From Wenzhouxiangella sp. XN201 (lineage in GTDB: Bacteria > Pseudomonadota > Gammaproteobacteria > Xanthomonadales > Wenzhouxiangellaceae), in assembly GCF_011008905.1 (NCBI RefSeq), contig NZ_JAAIVI010000017.1, positions 682,001 to 746,000 of the forward strand: a stretch of DNA of 64,000 nt, in the 5' to 3' direction. Numbering within the stretch: the stretch's first letter is position 1; each line of letters begins with the position of its first letter. The translations under genes and the position numbers were made by a program. The notes under the pieces are model-generated. The model did no database searches. It had not been told where the DNA came from and saw only the letters and a program-made list of their open reading frames with translations. Shown here in pieces: positions 30,501 to 39,141 of the stretch.

Positions 30501-31460
30501 ATGCCCGCAGCCTCTCCATATCTGCTTTGCGTCGCCCCGATGATGGACTGGACCGACCGCCACTGCCGGTATTTCCATCGTCTGCTTGCGCCAGAAGTGC
30601 GGCTCTACACCGAGATGGTGACCACCGGTGCGGTCATTCACGGGGATCGTGAGCGACTGCTGGGCTTTGATCCGGCCGAGCGCCCGGTTGCCCTGCAGCT
30701 TGGCGGCAGTGAACCGGATGAGCTGGCGCGGGCGGCGCGAATCGGCGCGGAATGCGGTTATGACGAGATCAATCTCAACGTGGGTTGCCCCTCCGACCGG
30801 GTGCAGAAGGGCCGATTTGGCGCCTGCCTGATGAAGGAGCCGGCGCTGGTTCGCGACTGCCTGGCCGCGATGCGCGCGGCCGTCGACGTGCCGGTGACGG
30901 TCAAGACACGGATCGGGGTCGATGAATTGGAGGGCGAAGACTTTCTGCTGGAATTCGTCGATACGGTGTCGGAAAGTGGTATCGACACGATCATCGTCCA
31001 CGCGCGCAAGGCCTGGCTCCAGGGTCTGAGTCCGAAGGAAAATCGTGAAATTCCGCCCTTGGCCTATGAGCAGGTCCATGCGCTCAAGCGGCGCTTTCCG
31101 GAACTGAACGTCGTCCTCAATGGCGGCATCGTCACAATCGAGCAGGCACTAGAGCAACTCGAGCAGGTCGACGGCATCATGCTCGGCCGGGCCGCCTACC
31201 AGAATCCCTGGATCCTCGCCGAGCTGAGCGGCGCTCTGGGCTTGCCGAGTGCGGGTTCTCGCCACGCAGTGGTCGAAGCCATGCAAGCCTATGCCCGGCT
31301 GCATATCGAAGGCGGGGGTCGGCTCCATCACGTCGGGCGGCATATGCTCGGCCTGTTCCATGGCCAGCCGGGGGCGCGCTCGTGGCGTCGGATGCTCAGC
31401 CAGAACATGCACCGGGCAGATGCCGGGCCGGAATTGTTTTTCGATGCCCTGCCGGAGTGA
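30501..31460 (+). CDS. dusA: tRNA-dihydrouridine synthase A
   Basis: A 319-residue FMN enzyme. VAPMMDWTDRHCRYFHR, NLNVGCPSDRVQKGRFGACLM (catalytic Cys in the last part) and VKTRIGVDE are typical of DusA. It reduces uridines in the D-loop of tRNA. The ATG at 30501 (MPAASPY) was preferred to a longer start at 30465. Confidence 0.93.
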   Translation: MPAASPYLLCVAPMMDWTDRHCRYFHRLLAPEVRLYTEMVTTGAVIHGDRERLLGFDPAERPVALQLGGSEPDELARAARIGAECGYDEINLNVGCPSDRVQKGRFGACLMKEPALVRDCLAAMRAAVDVPVTVKTRIGVDELEGEDFLLEFVDTVSESGIDTIIVHARKAWLQGLSPKENREIPPLAYEQVHALKRRFPELNVVLNGGIVTIEQALEQLEQVDGIMLGRAAYQNPWILAELSGALGLPSAGSRHAVVEAMQAYARLHIEGGGRLHHVGRHMLGLFHGQPGARSWRRMLSQNMHRADAGPELFFDALPE

Positions 31461-31531
31461 CCGGAACTGCGCTTGACCTAAAGCTCCGGCATACGCATAT
31501 TGACCACCCTTTTACCGCAGTTCGGAGAATC

Positions 31532-32455
31532 TTGACCTTGATCGTTCGCAGCCCCCAGGAATTCCGTACCCAGATCGATGCCGGCTGGCTCAACAGCGAC
31601 GGCCCGGCCGTGCCGCGTGCCGTGTTTCTCGTCGAGCCCAGCGGTTTTCGCATCTCGACCGAAACGGCGCGCGACAACGAGTACATGGAAGTCGATAGCG
31701 ACGTCGATCCCGGGCGGGCGCTCGATCAGCACCGCCAGCTCAGCGAGCGCATTGGCGAATGCGGTATTCCCGTGGTGCGCTTTCCCGGCAAGCCAGAGAC
31801 CCCCGACGACGTGTTTCCCAATAACGTCTTCGCGACCGCGCCGGGGCGGTTCATTCTCGGCGCCATGCGCTATCCCGGCCGTCAGCGCGAGGCCGAGCGC
31901 AAGGACATTCGCGCCTTCTTCACCGACCTGATGCGCTACGAGACGATCGATCTGTCCGGCCGCGGCCTGGTGGCTGAACTCACCGGTGCCTTGGTGCTCG
32001 ATCGCGCACGCCGCATCGGTTTCTGCGGCATCACCCAGCGCGTTGACGAGTCCGGTTGCCGCGCCATGCACGAGGCCTTCGATCTGGCGCTGACCTTTCA
32101 GTTCGATCTCGACCCACACGAGTATCACACCAATGTGGTCATGGCCGTGCTGGCATCAAGGGCCCTGGTGATCTGTCCGGATGCCTTTGCCGACCCGGAC
32201 GTGCCGCGGGCGATCGCCCATACCTATCCGAGCCACGTGCTCGAGATCACCTCCGAGGAAAAAGAAGCCTTCGCCGGTAACGTCATCGCACTTTCATTCC
32301 AGGATCTTTTCATGAGCCAGACGGCGATCGATGCCCTGGCACCTGAAAAGCTGAAGCAACTCGAGGACTGGGGCTTCGTCATCCACGGTATCGAGCTCGA
32401 CGAGATCGAGAAAGCCGGCGGCAGCCTGAGATGCTGTGTGGCCGAGATCTTCTGA
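31532..32455 (+). CDS. Amidinotransferase-fold hydrolase (arginine deiminase/CtlX-like)
   Basis: About 307 residues. PDDVFPNNVFAT, the catalytic His region EYHTNVVMAVL and a C-terminal GGSLRCCVAEIF with the likely nucleophile Cys place it in the guanidino-modifying superfamily (arginine deiminase, DDAH, citrulline-utilisation CtlX). The substrate is probably a guanidino or ureido compound, not proven. No ATG lies near the N-terminus; a TTG at 31532 with cggag 6-10 bases before it is the best start, and a second TTG at 31538 is possible. Confidence 0.78.
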   Translation: MTLIVRSPQEFRTQIDAGWLNSDGPAVPRAVFLVEPSGFRISTETARDNEYMEVDSDVDPGRALDQHRQLSERIGECGIPVVRFPGKPETPDDVFPNNVFATAPGRFILGAMRYPGRQREAERKDIRAFFTDLMRYETIDLSGRGLVAELTGALVLDRARRIGFCGITQRVDESGCRAMHEAFDLALTFQFDLDPHEYHTNVVMAVLASRALVICPDAFADPDVPRAIAHTYPSHVLEITSEEKEAFAGNVIALSFQDLFMSQTAIDALAPEKLKQLEDWGFVIHGIELDEIEKAGGSLRCCVAEIF

Positions 32456-35640: not shown

Positions 35641-36486
35641 ATGGCCATGTCGGCAACGGTTTCTAAAACCGATCACTGGACACAACACGCTCGGCAATGG
35701 CAATTCGTCGGATCGCCGCTGCGCCCCGGAGCGGAGGACATCACGACTGCCGCCCGCTTCATCGAACGGCAGCATGCACGCGGCGGCCGCAGTGGGCTGC
35801 AATCGGTCTTGCTGGGCGTGACCCCGGAACTGGTCAGCATGGCCTGGCCATTGCATACCCGGCTGCTTGCAGTCGATCGCAGTCCGGGAATGATCCGGTC
35901 GGTGCTGCCCGGCCGCTCTGGCACTGATGTGGATGCCGTTTGCGGAAATTGGCTTGATCTGCCCCTGCCCGCCGCGAGTGTCGATTGCGTGGTGGGCGAT
36001 GGCTGCTTTACCGTTCTCGAAAGTCTTGCGGCCCATCGTGCGCTGAGCAGGGAAGTTCGCCGCGTGCTCGATCGGGACGGTTTTTTCGTGATACGGCTGT
36101 TCGTACAGTTGCCGGAGCCTGAAAGTGTTGATCAGGTGTTTGATGAGTTGTCCGCCGGCGCCATCGGCAACTTTCATGTGTTCAAGTGGCGATTGGCGAT
36201 GGCCCTGCAGAGAAGTCAGCAGTCCGGTGTCGGCGTACATGAGATCTGGCGGCGGTGGCAGCAGGCCGGGATTTCGGCGCAATCGCTATCGCAACGCACC
36301 GGCTGGGGGGTCGACGAGATCCGGACGATCGAGGCGTACCGCGATGCGCCGGCCCGTTACACGTTTCCGACGCTGGCGCAGGCTCGCGAGGTGTTGCACG
36401 CTGATTTTCGGGAACTGGCCTGCCATGTTCCGGACTATGAACTGGGGCAGCGGTGTCCAACGCTGCTCCTCGCACCCCTGGACTGA
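35641..36486 (+). CDS. Class I SAM-dependent methyltransferase of unknown substrate
   Basis: A 281-residue Rossmann methyltransferase without signal peptide. VLLGVTPELVSMAWP is a divergent SAM-binding loop, followed by LLAVDRSPGMI and GNWLDLPLPAASVDCVVGDG with the acidic residues of a class I fold. The C-terminal half has a proline- and arginine-rich helical region that may bind the acceptor. It overlaps the following Mur-ligase-like gene by up to 34 bases, so the two products probably act in one pathway. ATG at 35641 or 35647 is possible. Confidence 0.8.
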   Translation: MAMSATVSKTDHWTQHARQWQFVGSPLRPGAEDITTAARFIERQHARGGRSGLQSVLLGVTPELVSMAWPLHTRLLAVDRSPGMIRSVLPGRSGTDVDAVCGNWLDLPLPAASVDCVVGDGCFTVLESLAAHRALSREVRRVLDRDGFFVIRLFVQLPEPESVDQVFDELSAGAIGNFHVFKWRLAMALQRSQQSGVGVHEIWRRWQQAGISAQSLSQRTGWGVDEIRTIEAYRDAPARYTFPTLAQAREVLHADFRELACHVPDYELGQRCPTLLLAPLD

Positions 36487-39005
36487 TAGATCGGATCGTT
36501 GCTCCTGACATGCACGAGCAAGTGACCTTCTACTACGGTGGGCCCAATCGGCGCTCGGACCGGCCCGTCATCGAACGGGTACTTGTCGTGAATGGGGAGG
36601 AACTGGCTTGCTTTGCCGCATCGGATCGGGCGCAGTGGCAGGCACGACTGGGAGACTTGCACGAGGCCCTTGTAGCGGATGCCGCAGACCGGGTCAGGGC
36701 CATCGATTCGCTTTCCACTCCCGATCAACTGGCCCATCTCTACGCGCAGACCTGTATCAGCCTGCAGCGCGCTGCGGGACATCTCGTGCGGGTGACCGGA
36801 CGCGTTGCAACGGCCGAGCCCAATCAGTGCCGGCCGTTTTTCGAGTACGAGGAAGAACAGACTGGAGCGCAGGGCGGCGAGATTGCGCTGCAAGCGCTCA
36901 ATCTCGTCTTCAGTCAGCAGTGCCCGTCATGCCGGGACGATGGGACGGCTGAAACGGTGCCGGACGAGCTCAAGGCGCGCATCGACAATTTTCTGTCCGA
37001 TTGCAGCAGGCGAGCCATGCCGGCCGACAGCCGGGCCATCCTCGAAGCGGCCGCGGAGCGGGGCATTCCCTGCCTGCGCATGGACCGACCGCCCTACGAA
37101 CCCATCGAGGGCAGTTTCAGGCTGCGATACAACGGCCTGTTCCGCCTGGGCCATGGTCACCGCCAGCACACGGTGGACGGCACCTTTTGCGTCAGCCGGT
37201 CCGAATCGGTGTTCTCGCTGGTGCGAGATCGTTCCGCGTTGTTCGAGTGGCTGGCCGCGCAATCCGTTCCGCTGCCCGGAAACTCGCCGGGACAGTGGTG
37301 CCAGTCGGCCGTCCGGGCGGCCAAGGCCGCCGAAAGAATCGGTTATCCAGTGCGCTTGCGTGCCGGGCGTCGCGGCACAGTGCGACAGGCTCCTCGGCAA
37401 CTAGCGGACCGCGATTCGGTGCTCCGGGCAGCCCAGTTCATGATTCAGTACACGCCCGGCCTGCTGGTTCAGGCCAGCGTACCCGGCACGGCTTTCCTGC
37501 TGGTTGTTGCCGGTTGCAGGTTGATCGCGGTATTCGAACGCAACGACGAAGGCGAAGAAACCTGGCGAACCGTCGATGACTTTCATGCGTCGCTGGAGAC
37601 GCTTGCCATCGAGCTTGCCGAATCCCTGTCGGTGGGCCTGATGAGTGTCACCCTGGTTACGCCCGATATCAGGGTGCCGCTCGAACACAGCGGTGGCGCG
37701 GTCGTGGACGTGGAACTCGCGCCCCGGCTCGACCGGCTGTTCGAGCACGATGATCCGCGCCTGCACCGGGCTGCCGGCGCTTTCGTCGACTGGATCTTTC
37801 CCGATCCGGAGCAGTCGCGTATTCCCCTCATCGCGGTGACCGGTACCAACGGCAAGACCACGACATGCCGCTTTCTCGACCGCATTCTTGCCGCTGCGGG
37901 AATGACCTGCGGGCTGGCCTGTTCCGACGGTTCGTTCGTGGCGAGCCGCCAGATTTCGAATTACGAGGATGGCTTCCTGCCGGGTCATATCACTGTCCTC
38001 GACAATCCGGAGGTCGAGGCGGCCGTCCTGGAATCGACCCGCGGAGCGGCCGGTTCCACGGGCCTGGGTTTCGAACGCTGCGACGTCGCGATCTGTCTCA
38101 ATGTGACCGCCGATCACCTCAACGACTTTGTCGGCGTGCGTACGGTCGAACAGCTGGCCGAGCTCAAACGCACGATCCTCGAGCGTGCCCGCCGCGCTGT
38201 CGTCCTGTGTGCCGACGACCCGCATTGCCGAAACATGATCCGCCATTTCGAGGACCGGACCATTGGCCTGGTATCGCTGACCCGGACAGCGGCGGAACTG
38301 ACCGGGCTCGGCGGCGCCGCCTCGGCCGCTGGCGTGCTGGAAGAAGTAGACCATCGGCCCTGGCTCGTCATCCATCACCGCGGACAACGGATTCAGGTTG
38401 CGGCGGTTTCAGACATCCCCCTGGCCTTCGAGGGCGCGGCGGAACACAACGTTCTCAACGCTCTGCACGCGGCAGTGGCTGCGTACCTGACGGATATGCC
38501 GGTCAAGGCCATTGCCTGCGGTCTGTGCGCTCTCGAACCGGTCTATGAATCCGTACCGGGACGGCTGACCTTCTACCGCGAACTGCCGTTCGACGTGTGT
38601 ATGGACTACGCGCACAACCCCGCCGGCGTGCAAACGCTGTGTGATTTTGTCGACAGGCTGCCGGTTGCTGGCCGCCGCATCCTGTGCTTTTCCTGCAGCA
38701 ATGCCAACAGCAACGACTTCATTCGCGAAACCGGTGCGGCTGCGGCCGGGCGGTTCGATCACTACATCTGCAAGAATTTCAGCAAGTTGTTCGGCCGAGA
38801 ACCGCACGAAGGGCCGCGATTGCTGAGCGAGGGCCTGGCGGCGGCCGGCGTTCCCCCTGATGCCATGACCTGTATCGAATCCGAGCCCGAGGCAATCGAT
38901 GCCGCCCTGGCGATGGGCCGGCCAGGCGATCTCGTGGTCATCGTCGGCGGCAAGCGACGCGATGCGCTATGGGAGCAGATCCTCCGATGGAAAACCGAGA
39001 CTTAA
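36453..39005 (+). CDS. Cyanophycin-synthetase-like protein: intact Mur-ligase domain, degenerate ATP-grasp region
   Basis: An 850-residue protein ordered like CphA: an N-terminal domain (HLYAQTCISLQRAAGHLVR and FEYEEEQTG, residues 95-137), an ATP-grasp-like middle (about 215-430) and a C-terminal Mur ligase. The Mur part is well kept: ATP loop TGTNGKTTT at 463-471, NVTADHL at 550-556, LAELKRT near 570, CADDP and DYAHNP at 718-723. The middle lacks expected nucleotide-binding residues: GYPVRLRAGRRG stands where CphA has a VxKP-type lysine, and RDRSALFEWL where a DK..T is expected. The GDRRD-like motif of the last domain reads CSNANSND. The frame opens at GTG 36453; ATG 36510 would remove the overlap with the methyltransferase. 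It may ligate one amino acid to an acceptor. Confidence 0.75.
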   Translation: MSNAAPRTPGLIDRIVAPDMHEQVTFYYGGPNRRSDRPVIERVLVVNGEELACFAASDRAQWQARLGDLHEALVADAADRVRAIDSLSTPDQLAHLYAQTCISLQRAAGHLVRVTGRVATAEPNQCRPFFEYEEEQTGAQGGEIALQALNLVFSQQCPSCRDDGTAETVPDELKARIDNFLSDCSRRAMPADSRAILEAAAERGIPCLRMDRPPYEPIEGSFRLRYNGLFRLGHGHRQHTVDGTFCVSRSESVFSLVRDRSALFEWLAAQSVPLPGNSPGQWCQSAVRAAKAAERIGYPVRLRAGRRGTVRQAPRQLADRDSVLRAAQFMIQYTPGLLVQASVPGTAFLLVVAGCRLIAVFERNDEGEETWRTVDDFHASLETLAIELAESLSVGLMSVTLVTPDIRVPLEHSGGAVVDVELAPRLDRLFEHDDPRLHRAAGAFVDWIFPDPEQSRIPLIAVTGTNGKTTTCRFLDRILAAAGMTCGLACSDGSFVASRQISNYEDGFLPGHITVLDNPEVEAAVLESTRGAAGSTGLGFERCDVAICLNVTADHLNDFVGVRTVEQLAELKRTILERARRAVVLCADDPHCRNMIRHFEDRTIGLVSLTRTAAELTGLGGAASAAGVLEEVDHRPWLVIHHRGQRIQVAAVSDIPLAFEGAAEHNVLNALHAAVAAYLTDMPVKAIACGLCALEPVYESVPGRLTFYRELPFDVCMDYAHNPAGVQTLCDFVDRLPVAGRRILCFSCSNANSNDFIRETGAAAAGRFDHYICKNFSKLFGREPHEGPRLLSEGLAAAGVPPDAMTCIESEPEAIDAALAMGRPGDLVVIVGGKRRDALWEQILRWKTET

Positions 39006-39066: not shown

Positions 39067-39141
39067 GGGCCGTTAGCTCAATGGTAGAGCAGTAGGCTTT
39101 TAACCTATTGGTTGAAGGTTCGAGTCCTTCACGGCCCACCA
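39067..39141 (+). tRNA. tRNA-Lys (anticodon UUU), CCA encoded
   Basis: A complete cloverleaf: acceptor GGGCCGT/ACGGCCC, D-stem GCTC/GAGC, anticodon stem GTAGG/CCTAT with loop CTTTTAA (anticodon TTT) and T-arm GAAGG TTCGAGT CCTTC. Discriminator A is followed by encoded CCA. The variable region contains G46. No terminator is seen before the trmB-like gene 18 bases on. Confidence 0.96.

Follow-up and report, generated by a model that had tools for sequence, protein, structure and literature searches.

A putative CphA-derived Mur-type ligase with a decayed ATP-grasp domain and exchangeable methyltransferase neighbors in Wenzhouxiangella

What is made by a protein that resembles cyanophycin synthetase (CphA) and seems to have kept only one of its two active sites? 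The question is raised by a gene pair of Wenzhouxiangella sp. XN201 (assembly GCF_011008905.1, genome of 3.13 Mb), located on contig NZ_JAAIVI010000017.1 (C17) within a stretch of 64,000 nucleotides, positions 682,001 to 746,000, which was analyzed as a whole and is called the window below. The first gene (window positions 35641..36486, plus strand) encodes MT1, a predicted class I S-adenosylmethionine (SAM)-dependent methyltransferase of 281 residues. The second (36510..39005, plus strand) encodes a ligase with an apparently intact Mur domain and a decayed ATP-grasp domain. Our analysis suggests a single-site ATP-dependent amide ligase derived from CphA, with exchangeable methyltransferase partners and a small methylated or methyl-masked product, and we give this reading an even chance. 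Compared loci are labeled L### and compared genomes G###, G000 being the genome of the window.

Both genes are real. They had been described as overlapping, but the 34-nt overlap requires a start at GTG 36453, yielding 850 residues, and this start is not conserved. The homologues of the ligase align from ATG 36510, yielding 831 residues and a 23-nt gap after the MT1 gene, and therefore the two genes are probably non-overlapping.

The ligase is assigned to the Mur ligase superfamily by two Pfam domains scoring above their gathering cut-offs, Mur_ligase_M (6.7e-19, 69.1 bits, cut-off 24) and Mur_ligase_C (8.8e-14, 52.9 bits, cut-off 28.4). Its best sequence match in PDB is CphA1. When the AlphaFold2 model was compared with PDB by Foldseek, ten CphA1 chains came first, followed by MurE and CphA2; the top match, 7wae_A, had template modeling (TM) scores of 0.76 and 0.73 at 21% identity. 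Judged by sequence, the ligase is a descendant of CphA. The CphA layout that an earlier note, made from the letters of the window, had reported holds for the order of the N-terminal (N), ATP-grasp (G), and Mur (M) domains and for the predicted fold, but it is broken in two places, described below.

Close relatives, here called window-type ligases, score above 1100 bits with the family profile and occupy 11 places among 398 genomes of the order, all in the same genus; the next-best match has 598 bits. These 11 homologues were aligned with CphA1 sequences from the same family of bacteria. Residue numbers and roles follow CphA1 as given in excerpts of PMC9427784 and PMC9262961; the alignment does not include the published proteins, whose columns were placed by motif. 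At the M-domain positions compared, the ligase agrees with CphA1: K499, T500, E558, D585, H586, R731, and H748 are identical in all 11 homologues, and T522 is replaced by Ser in all of them. The claim of an intact Mur core is borne out, as the P-loop TGTNGKTTT (37839..37865, plus strand), the DH of NVTADHL (38100..38120, plus strand; CphA1 D585/H586), and the AHNP of DYAHNP (38604..38621, plus strand; CphA1 H748) are invariant throughout.

The G site differs from that of CphA1 at nearly every position considered. Both ATP-grasp lysines are indeed absent, with Arg at K220 in 11/11 homologues and at K261 in 10/11. H267 is kept in one homologue, R309 in four, R323 in two, D431 in one, and N394 and R458 in none; E450 is replaced by Asp (10/11) or Glu (1/11), N452 by Glu or Asp (11/11), and R458 by Asp (11/11). 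In the window ligase, the residues at K220, K261, H267, R309, R323, N394, D431, E450, and R458 are R, R, T, L, R, a gap, T, D, and D, respectively, which is not the CphA1 G site; the retained R323 lies at the edge of a deletion, where the alignment is unsure. This deletion is the first break in the layout: the stretch from R323 to STGG has 77 residues in CphA1 of the family and 5–8 in all 11 window-type homologues, leaving a G remnant (37200..37733, plus strand; ending in LAPRLD) about 70 residues shorter than the CphA1 domain. The missing N394 belongs to the omega module, which is involved in Asp recognition (excerpt of PMC9427784), and the lost stretch may well be this module. The second break is the HxxEH peptidase motif of the N domain, gone from all 11 homologues, none of which keeps its Glu. 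Intact ATP-grasp residues at shifted positions were considered and rejected, as the alignment has none.

The pattern of conservation points in the same direction. Among the 11 window-type ligases, invariant positions make up 2/165 of the N domain, 23/65 of a conserved N-terminal block, 7/178 (4%) of the G remnant, and 87/423 (21%) of the M domain (37734..39002, plus strand). Among 11 canonical CphA1 (15 frames, 4 duplicates excluded), the respective values are 63/163, 33/53 in the corresponding block, 125/259 (48%), and 188/430 (44%). The control proteins are more alike (mean pairwise identity 0.70 vs. 0.45), so the ratios are compared only within each set: G and M are equally conserved in CphA1, while in the window-type set conservation of G is about five times lower than that of M. 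Constraint on the N domain has been lost as well. Replaced G residues, the missing stretch with N394, and the collapsed constraint on G support the earlier proposal that the Asp-adding ATP-grasp function has been lost and the Mur function retained. Decay of the whole ligase was considered and rejected, given open frames in the 11 homologues and the 87 invariant M positions.

The conserved block (37005..37199, plus strand; residues 185–249 in the 850-residue numbering, RMDRPPYEPIEGSFRLR...GHGHRQHTVDGTFC) contains the least confident part of the model, residues 191–229, with a predicted local distance difference test (pLDDT) of 36–47 by ten-residue blocks. Such low confidence would fit a loop that becomes ordered on substrate.

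Could the ATP-grasp domain still be active on a new substrate, so that the protein makes two bonds? The replacement of the lysines by Arg is by itself weak evidence of loss, because in certain ATP-grasp enzymes, carbamoyl-phosphate synthetase among them, Arg at both places is used for ATP. Positions E450 and N452, acidic in all 11 homologues, also speak for activity, as does the structure prediction, which had been proposed as a check of the middle domain: the ATP-grasp fold is predicted to be kept (pLDDT 69–92 for the G remnant), and it is the alignment that indicates loss of the catalytic residues. Against activity are the near-absence of the Mg ligand D431 and of H267, the loss of R309 in most homologues, the low number of invariant positions in G, and the deletion of much of the G domain in most of the short relatives described below. 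We consider a two-bond enzyme quite unlikely.

One motif taken earlier as a sign of ATP-grasp decay belongs elsewhere. CSNANSND (38694..38717, plus strand) lies after DYAHNP, in the C-terminal lid of the Mur domain, and aligns with the GDRRDEDI-type sequence of CphA1. Therefore it bears on the choice of amino acid by the Mur site and is silent on the loss of ATP-grasp. The first Arg of GDRRD is replaced by Asn in 10/11 homologues, and the last Arg of DDNRRGR is the one residue of this motif common to all 11. MurE has an amino-acid-binding motif, which serves here as an analogy for the lid motifs of CphA. By this analogy, the amine used at the Mur site would probably be other than arginine, because both lid motifs of CphA1 have been replaced.

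By the sequence tests run, the ligase is not a cyanophycin synthetase: it scores 377.6 bits with NF010623 (cut-off 877) and 373.4 bits with TIGR02068 (cut-off 850). In its own genome, a second cphA was considered and rejected, as the other TIGR02068 matches are partial and do not exceed 57 bits, so the genome search for a true cphA returned nothing besides the ligase. The window itself, as noted before, contains no second cphA and no cyanophycinase: tblastn found no gene resembling the cyanophycinases of the family, no iadA-type amidohydrolase, and no second CphA1 or CphA', with cyanophycinase searched for in the window and not genome-wide. Other members of the family (L049, L050, L051) do have canonical cphA1 clusters, where cphA1 is accompanied by a second Mur gene that we take to be CphA'. 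These clusters include a gene for an S51 peptidase, the type to which cyanophycinase belongs (Pfam test for L049), and, according to an excerpt of PMC10206079, cphA1 usually clusters with cyanophycinase when a genome has both. A working cyanophycin synthetase of unusual sequence, with polymer made by the strain, would account for the domain order and fold of CphA1 and for the intact Mur site. However, the Asp site is lost in all 11 homologues, the scores are under half of the family cut-offs, GDRRD and DDNRRGR are altered, and the window lacks a cyanophycinase-like gene; we regard this explanation as hardly credible.

The distribution of the ligase is patchy, with window-type genes in 11/43 genomes of the family. 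A scan of genome contigs yielded one relative, in Wenzhouxiangella sp. 15190, and a class-wide search at E 1e-123 recovered only the genome of the window (1/369), at a cut-off strict enough to miss weaker relatives. A role in recycling of the cell wall or of peptides, as a Mur-type ligase without a specialized product, would agree with the relatedness of the Mur core to MurE; but the patchy occurrence, the CphA-type N-terminal half, and the absence of a domain binding uridine diphosphate (UDP)-sugars make such a role very unlikely.

The matches ranking next below the window-type ligases are for the most part short relatives (ten of 743–858 residues and four shorter frames) from another family of the order and from G006. 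Most of them lack even more of the G domain than the window-type ligases, so that the ATP-grasp half is partly decayed in Wenzhouxiangella and largely deleted in most short relatives of other genera. The ligase of G019, cut by a contig start, and four short relatives of 410–659 residues were kept and counted with gaps. In a tree of the M domain (34 rows), the 11 window-type ligases form a clade (support 100/99), and a branch with support 98/97 separates them, together with the short relatives, from CphA1, CphA', and a third group. Among the matches listed in a search of open-licence PMC literature, no title or abstract opening describes this ligase lineage.

MT1 is an open reading frame (ORF) matching Methyltransf_11 (3.4e-9, 37.6 bits, cut-off 21.2) over profile positions 17–95, with the motif I part unmatched. 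Its motif I reads LGVTPEL, which is unusual, and LG.TPE is present in 8/8 aligned homologues. The Pfam score and the matching fold in Foldseek both indicate a class I SAM-methyltransferase, with activity predicted. The Foldseek matches are generic small-molecule methyltransferases, including CysG and BelI, and therefore the substrate of MT1 cannot be read from them. No branch of the MT1 tree reached a support of 95/80.

The ligase adjoins different methyltransferases in different lineages. MT1 is directly upstream of it in the window and in L040, L041, and L042, while in L043, L045, and L047 this place is taken by F14, a 252-residue methyltransferase with no significant similarity to MT1. Orthologues of MT1 (at least 50% identity) are present in 6/43 family genomes and those of F14 (at least 54%) in 5/43, all within the 11 ligase genomes; at E ≤0.001 the counts are 12/43 and 37/43, the matches below these identities being weak part-matches. 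Either or both occur in 9/11 genomes with the ligase and in 0/32 without it (Fisher tests, which ignore kinship: MT1, 7.6e-5; F14, 4.8e-4; either, 9.8e-8). The genome of the window also carries an F14-type copy (54% identity; G000:C17:1466688-1467434, L069) far from the ligase, beside a gene that by eye resembles a heavy-metal ATPase.

Is this more than neighborhood? The two genes may be unrelated neighbors whose co-occurrence stems from common descent and from a genomic segment being transferred or lost as a whole, and several observations that favor this explanation weigh at the same time against a functional partnership. MT1 itself adjoins the ligase in only 4/11 places, so the pairing asserted earlier, and the co-location of homologues proposed as its test, hold only in part: the ligase has methyltransferase neighbors, but not always the same one. 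On a PNPase tree, the ligase changes state at least six times, and the association is not significant once kinship is considered (five independent pairs: three concordant, none discordant, and two uninformative; p 0.25); the tree covers 35/43 genomes, including 8 of the 11 with the ligase, as G022, G025, G027, G029, G034, and G038 gave no match at the cut-off and G011 and G031 gave fragments. Two ligase genomes have neither methyltransferase, G020 (89% complete) and G023 (65%), and in G023 a GNAT-like gene is directly upstream of the ligase instead. In G019 and G029, MT1 is present away from the ligase: it follows mazG, as in the window (L071, L072), with the ligase located on a different contig (MT1 of G029 being near a contig end). 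Outside the family, homologues of MT1 (G260, G103) and of F14 (G269, G289) are found where no window-type ligase is encoded, and therefore both methyltransferases can work without it. The gene beside the MT1 homologue of G260 had no family or PDB sequence match, and we claim no ligase link for it. Further points on the same side concern the ligase and its surroundings: Arg at K220 and K261 together with the acidic positions leaves nucleotide binding by the G remnant possible, the non-arginine partner is our inference from the lid motifs, and the pair is not embedded in a biosynthetic cluster within the window.

On the other side of the balance are the adjacency of two unrelated methyltransferases in different lineages, the contrast of 9/11 and 0/32, and the gene order in G031. 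There (L070), lysS, F14, lipocalin, and flavin adenine dinucleotide (FAD)-oxidoreductase genes follow one another as in G024 and G027, but the ligase is missing from this place and adjoins MT1 instead. The MT1-ligase pair behaves as a unit, and the ligase adjoins either of the two methyltransferases, because the pair is absent from the mazG site in G035 and lies elsewhere as a whole in G017, where the pair and mazG are on different contigs (L040, L172). In G035 (L175), a small ORF between mazG and tRNA-Lys/trmB, where the pair would be, is related to the ORF that follows the ligase in L041 and L042. The ligase tree groups by partner, uniting the four MT1-linked ligases (91/95) and the three F14-linked ones (100/100); the PNPase tree joins G037 with G024 and G026 (99/99), and the placements in the two trees hint at transfer or differential loss. 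We consider mere neighborhood doubtful, and retain the reading of a single-site ligase with exchangeable methyltransferase partners.

The pair is bordered on the right by tRNA-Lys(TTT) (39067..39141, plus strand), found in the same place in L041, L042, L175, and L179. Upstream, the window ORF 31382-32455 is presumably a relative of arginine deiminase or dimethylarginine hydrolase, judged by eye, and similar genes are upstream in L042 and L072. A class V aminotransferase gene is upstream of the pair in G017 (L040 1706-3034).

The short relatives are found in contexts that fit small-molecule biosynthesis, each seen once or a few times. Of their 13 loci (L106–L118), three (L106, L107, L114) contain a neighboring TauD dioxygenase gene, and in L106 (1318-6579) a P450 gene also abuts the short CphA-like gene. 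In L108, a third methyltransferase-like gene overlaps the short relative; it scores at or below Pfam cut-offs (Methyltransf_11 just at the cut-off). An AMP-binding ligase gene is near the CphA-like gene in L109 (526-6450; Pfam) and, by eye, in L113. By eye, both loci also contain genes for a small carrier-like protein, an epimerase-like protein, and a synthase-like protein. G154 carries two short relatives and two F14 homologues, which are not adjacent. In G269 (L164 6802-8417), from another genus of the order, the F14 homologue overlaps a gene resembling DcsG, the ATP-grasp ligase D-cycloserine synthetase (333 bits against a cut-off of 360).

A broader view is tentative, and we rate it somewhat short of even: a lineage of CphA-derived amide ligases would have arisen by ATP-grasp decay and entered small-molecule pathways on several occasions, with tailoring enzymes that can be exchanged (TauD dioxygenases, one P450, and methyltransferases unrelated to each other), and the products would be methylated or methyl-ester-masked peptides containing a non-arginine amine.

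A different full-length CphA-like protein of 907–948 residues was seen in L055 (7494-13494), L054 (2457-6832), and L053 (7403-11272). It keeps the central loop, R309, and D431, and has H748 replaced by Gln in 3/3 cases. Its neighbors are GCS2 and ornithine-cyclodeaminase/mu-crystallin genes (both were tested in L055, while L054 and L053 each have one of the two, identified by similarity). These loci perhaps represent another peptide pathway.

How might the pair of the window work? The Mur domain would phosphorylate a carboxylate with ATP and couple the acyl phosphate to an amine, probably not arginine. The dead ATP-grasp domain would serve as a scaffold, and the conserved N-terminal block may help to hold the substrate. 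The adjacent SAM-methyltransferase, replaced by an unrelated one in other lineages, would methylate the substrate or the product, with either of two outcomes: the methyl group, on N or O, may be permanent, or it may form a temporary ester by which one carboxylate is masked so that the ligase acts at a different one. A small amide or a short peptide would be expected, and no polymer. We consider the lasting and the transient modification equally possible; the latter is a real alternative because CysG, in the cystargolide pathway, uses methyl esterification to mask a carboxylate ahead of ATP-dependent steps (excerpt of PMC11427300).

The ligase points to uncharacterized Mur-type ligases that CphA models recognize only weakly and whose products may be small modified peptides. 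Such enzymes would be miscounted in surveys where cphA-like matches are read as cyanophycin storage and no cut-offs are applied.

Among known systems, CphA1 (7WAE, 7LG5, 7LGN, 7LGM) shares with the window ligase the N-G-M order, the fold, and the residues of the M site. Unlike CphA1, the window ligase lacks the Asp-adding G site (some 70 residues) and HxxEH, has changed lid motifs, and contains extra residues in the conserved N-terminal block. MurE shares the Mur core and provides the next fold matches after CphA1, but the ligase has a CphA-type N-terminal half in place of the MurE N-terminal domain. For the methyltransferase, the comparison is with CysG and BelI of cystargolide and belactosin biosynthesis, SAM-methyltransferases working with ATP-dependent enzymes; MT1 is 15–20% identical to them, they are among many generic matches, and their partners are not Mur ligases (excerpt of PMC11427300). 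Closer to the ligase is CphA' (548–595 residues, the second Mur gene beside cphA1 in L049–L051), which similarly has a Mur site without ATP-grasp catalysis, but forms its own clade, lacks the N-terminal block, and adjoins cphA1. Finally, CphA2 (8FXI, 7TA5) is likewise a one-site relative of CphA1; it lacks the P-loop and lid of the M domain and works with G alone (excerpt of PMC9427784). The window ligase does not follow the CphA2 pattern and is its mirror image, having kept M and lost G. This suggests that a two-site CphA can decay either way, the ATP-grasp site being kept in CphA2 and the Mur site in the lineage of the window, and the two directions of decay form a natural experiment on what each site requires.

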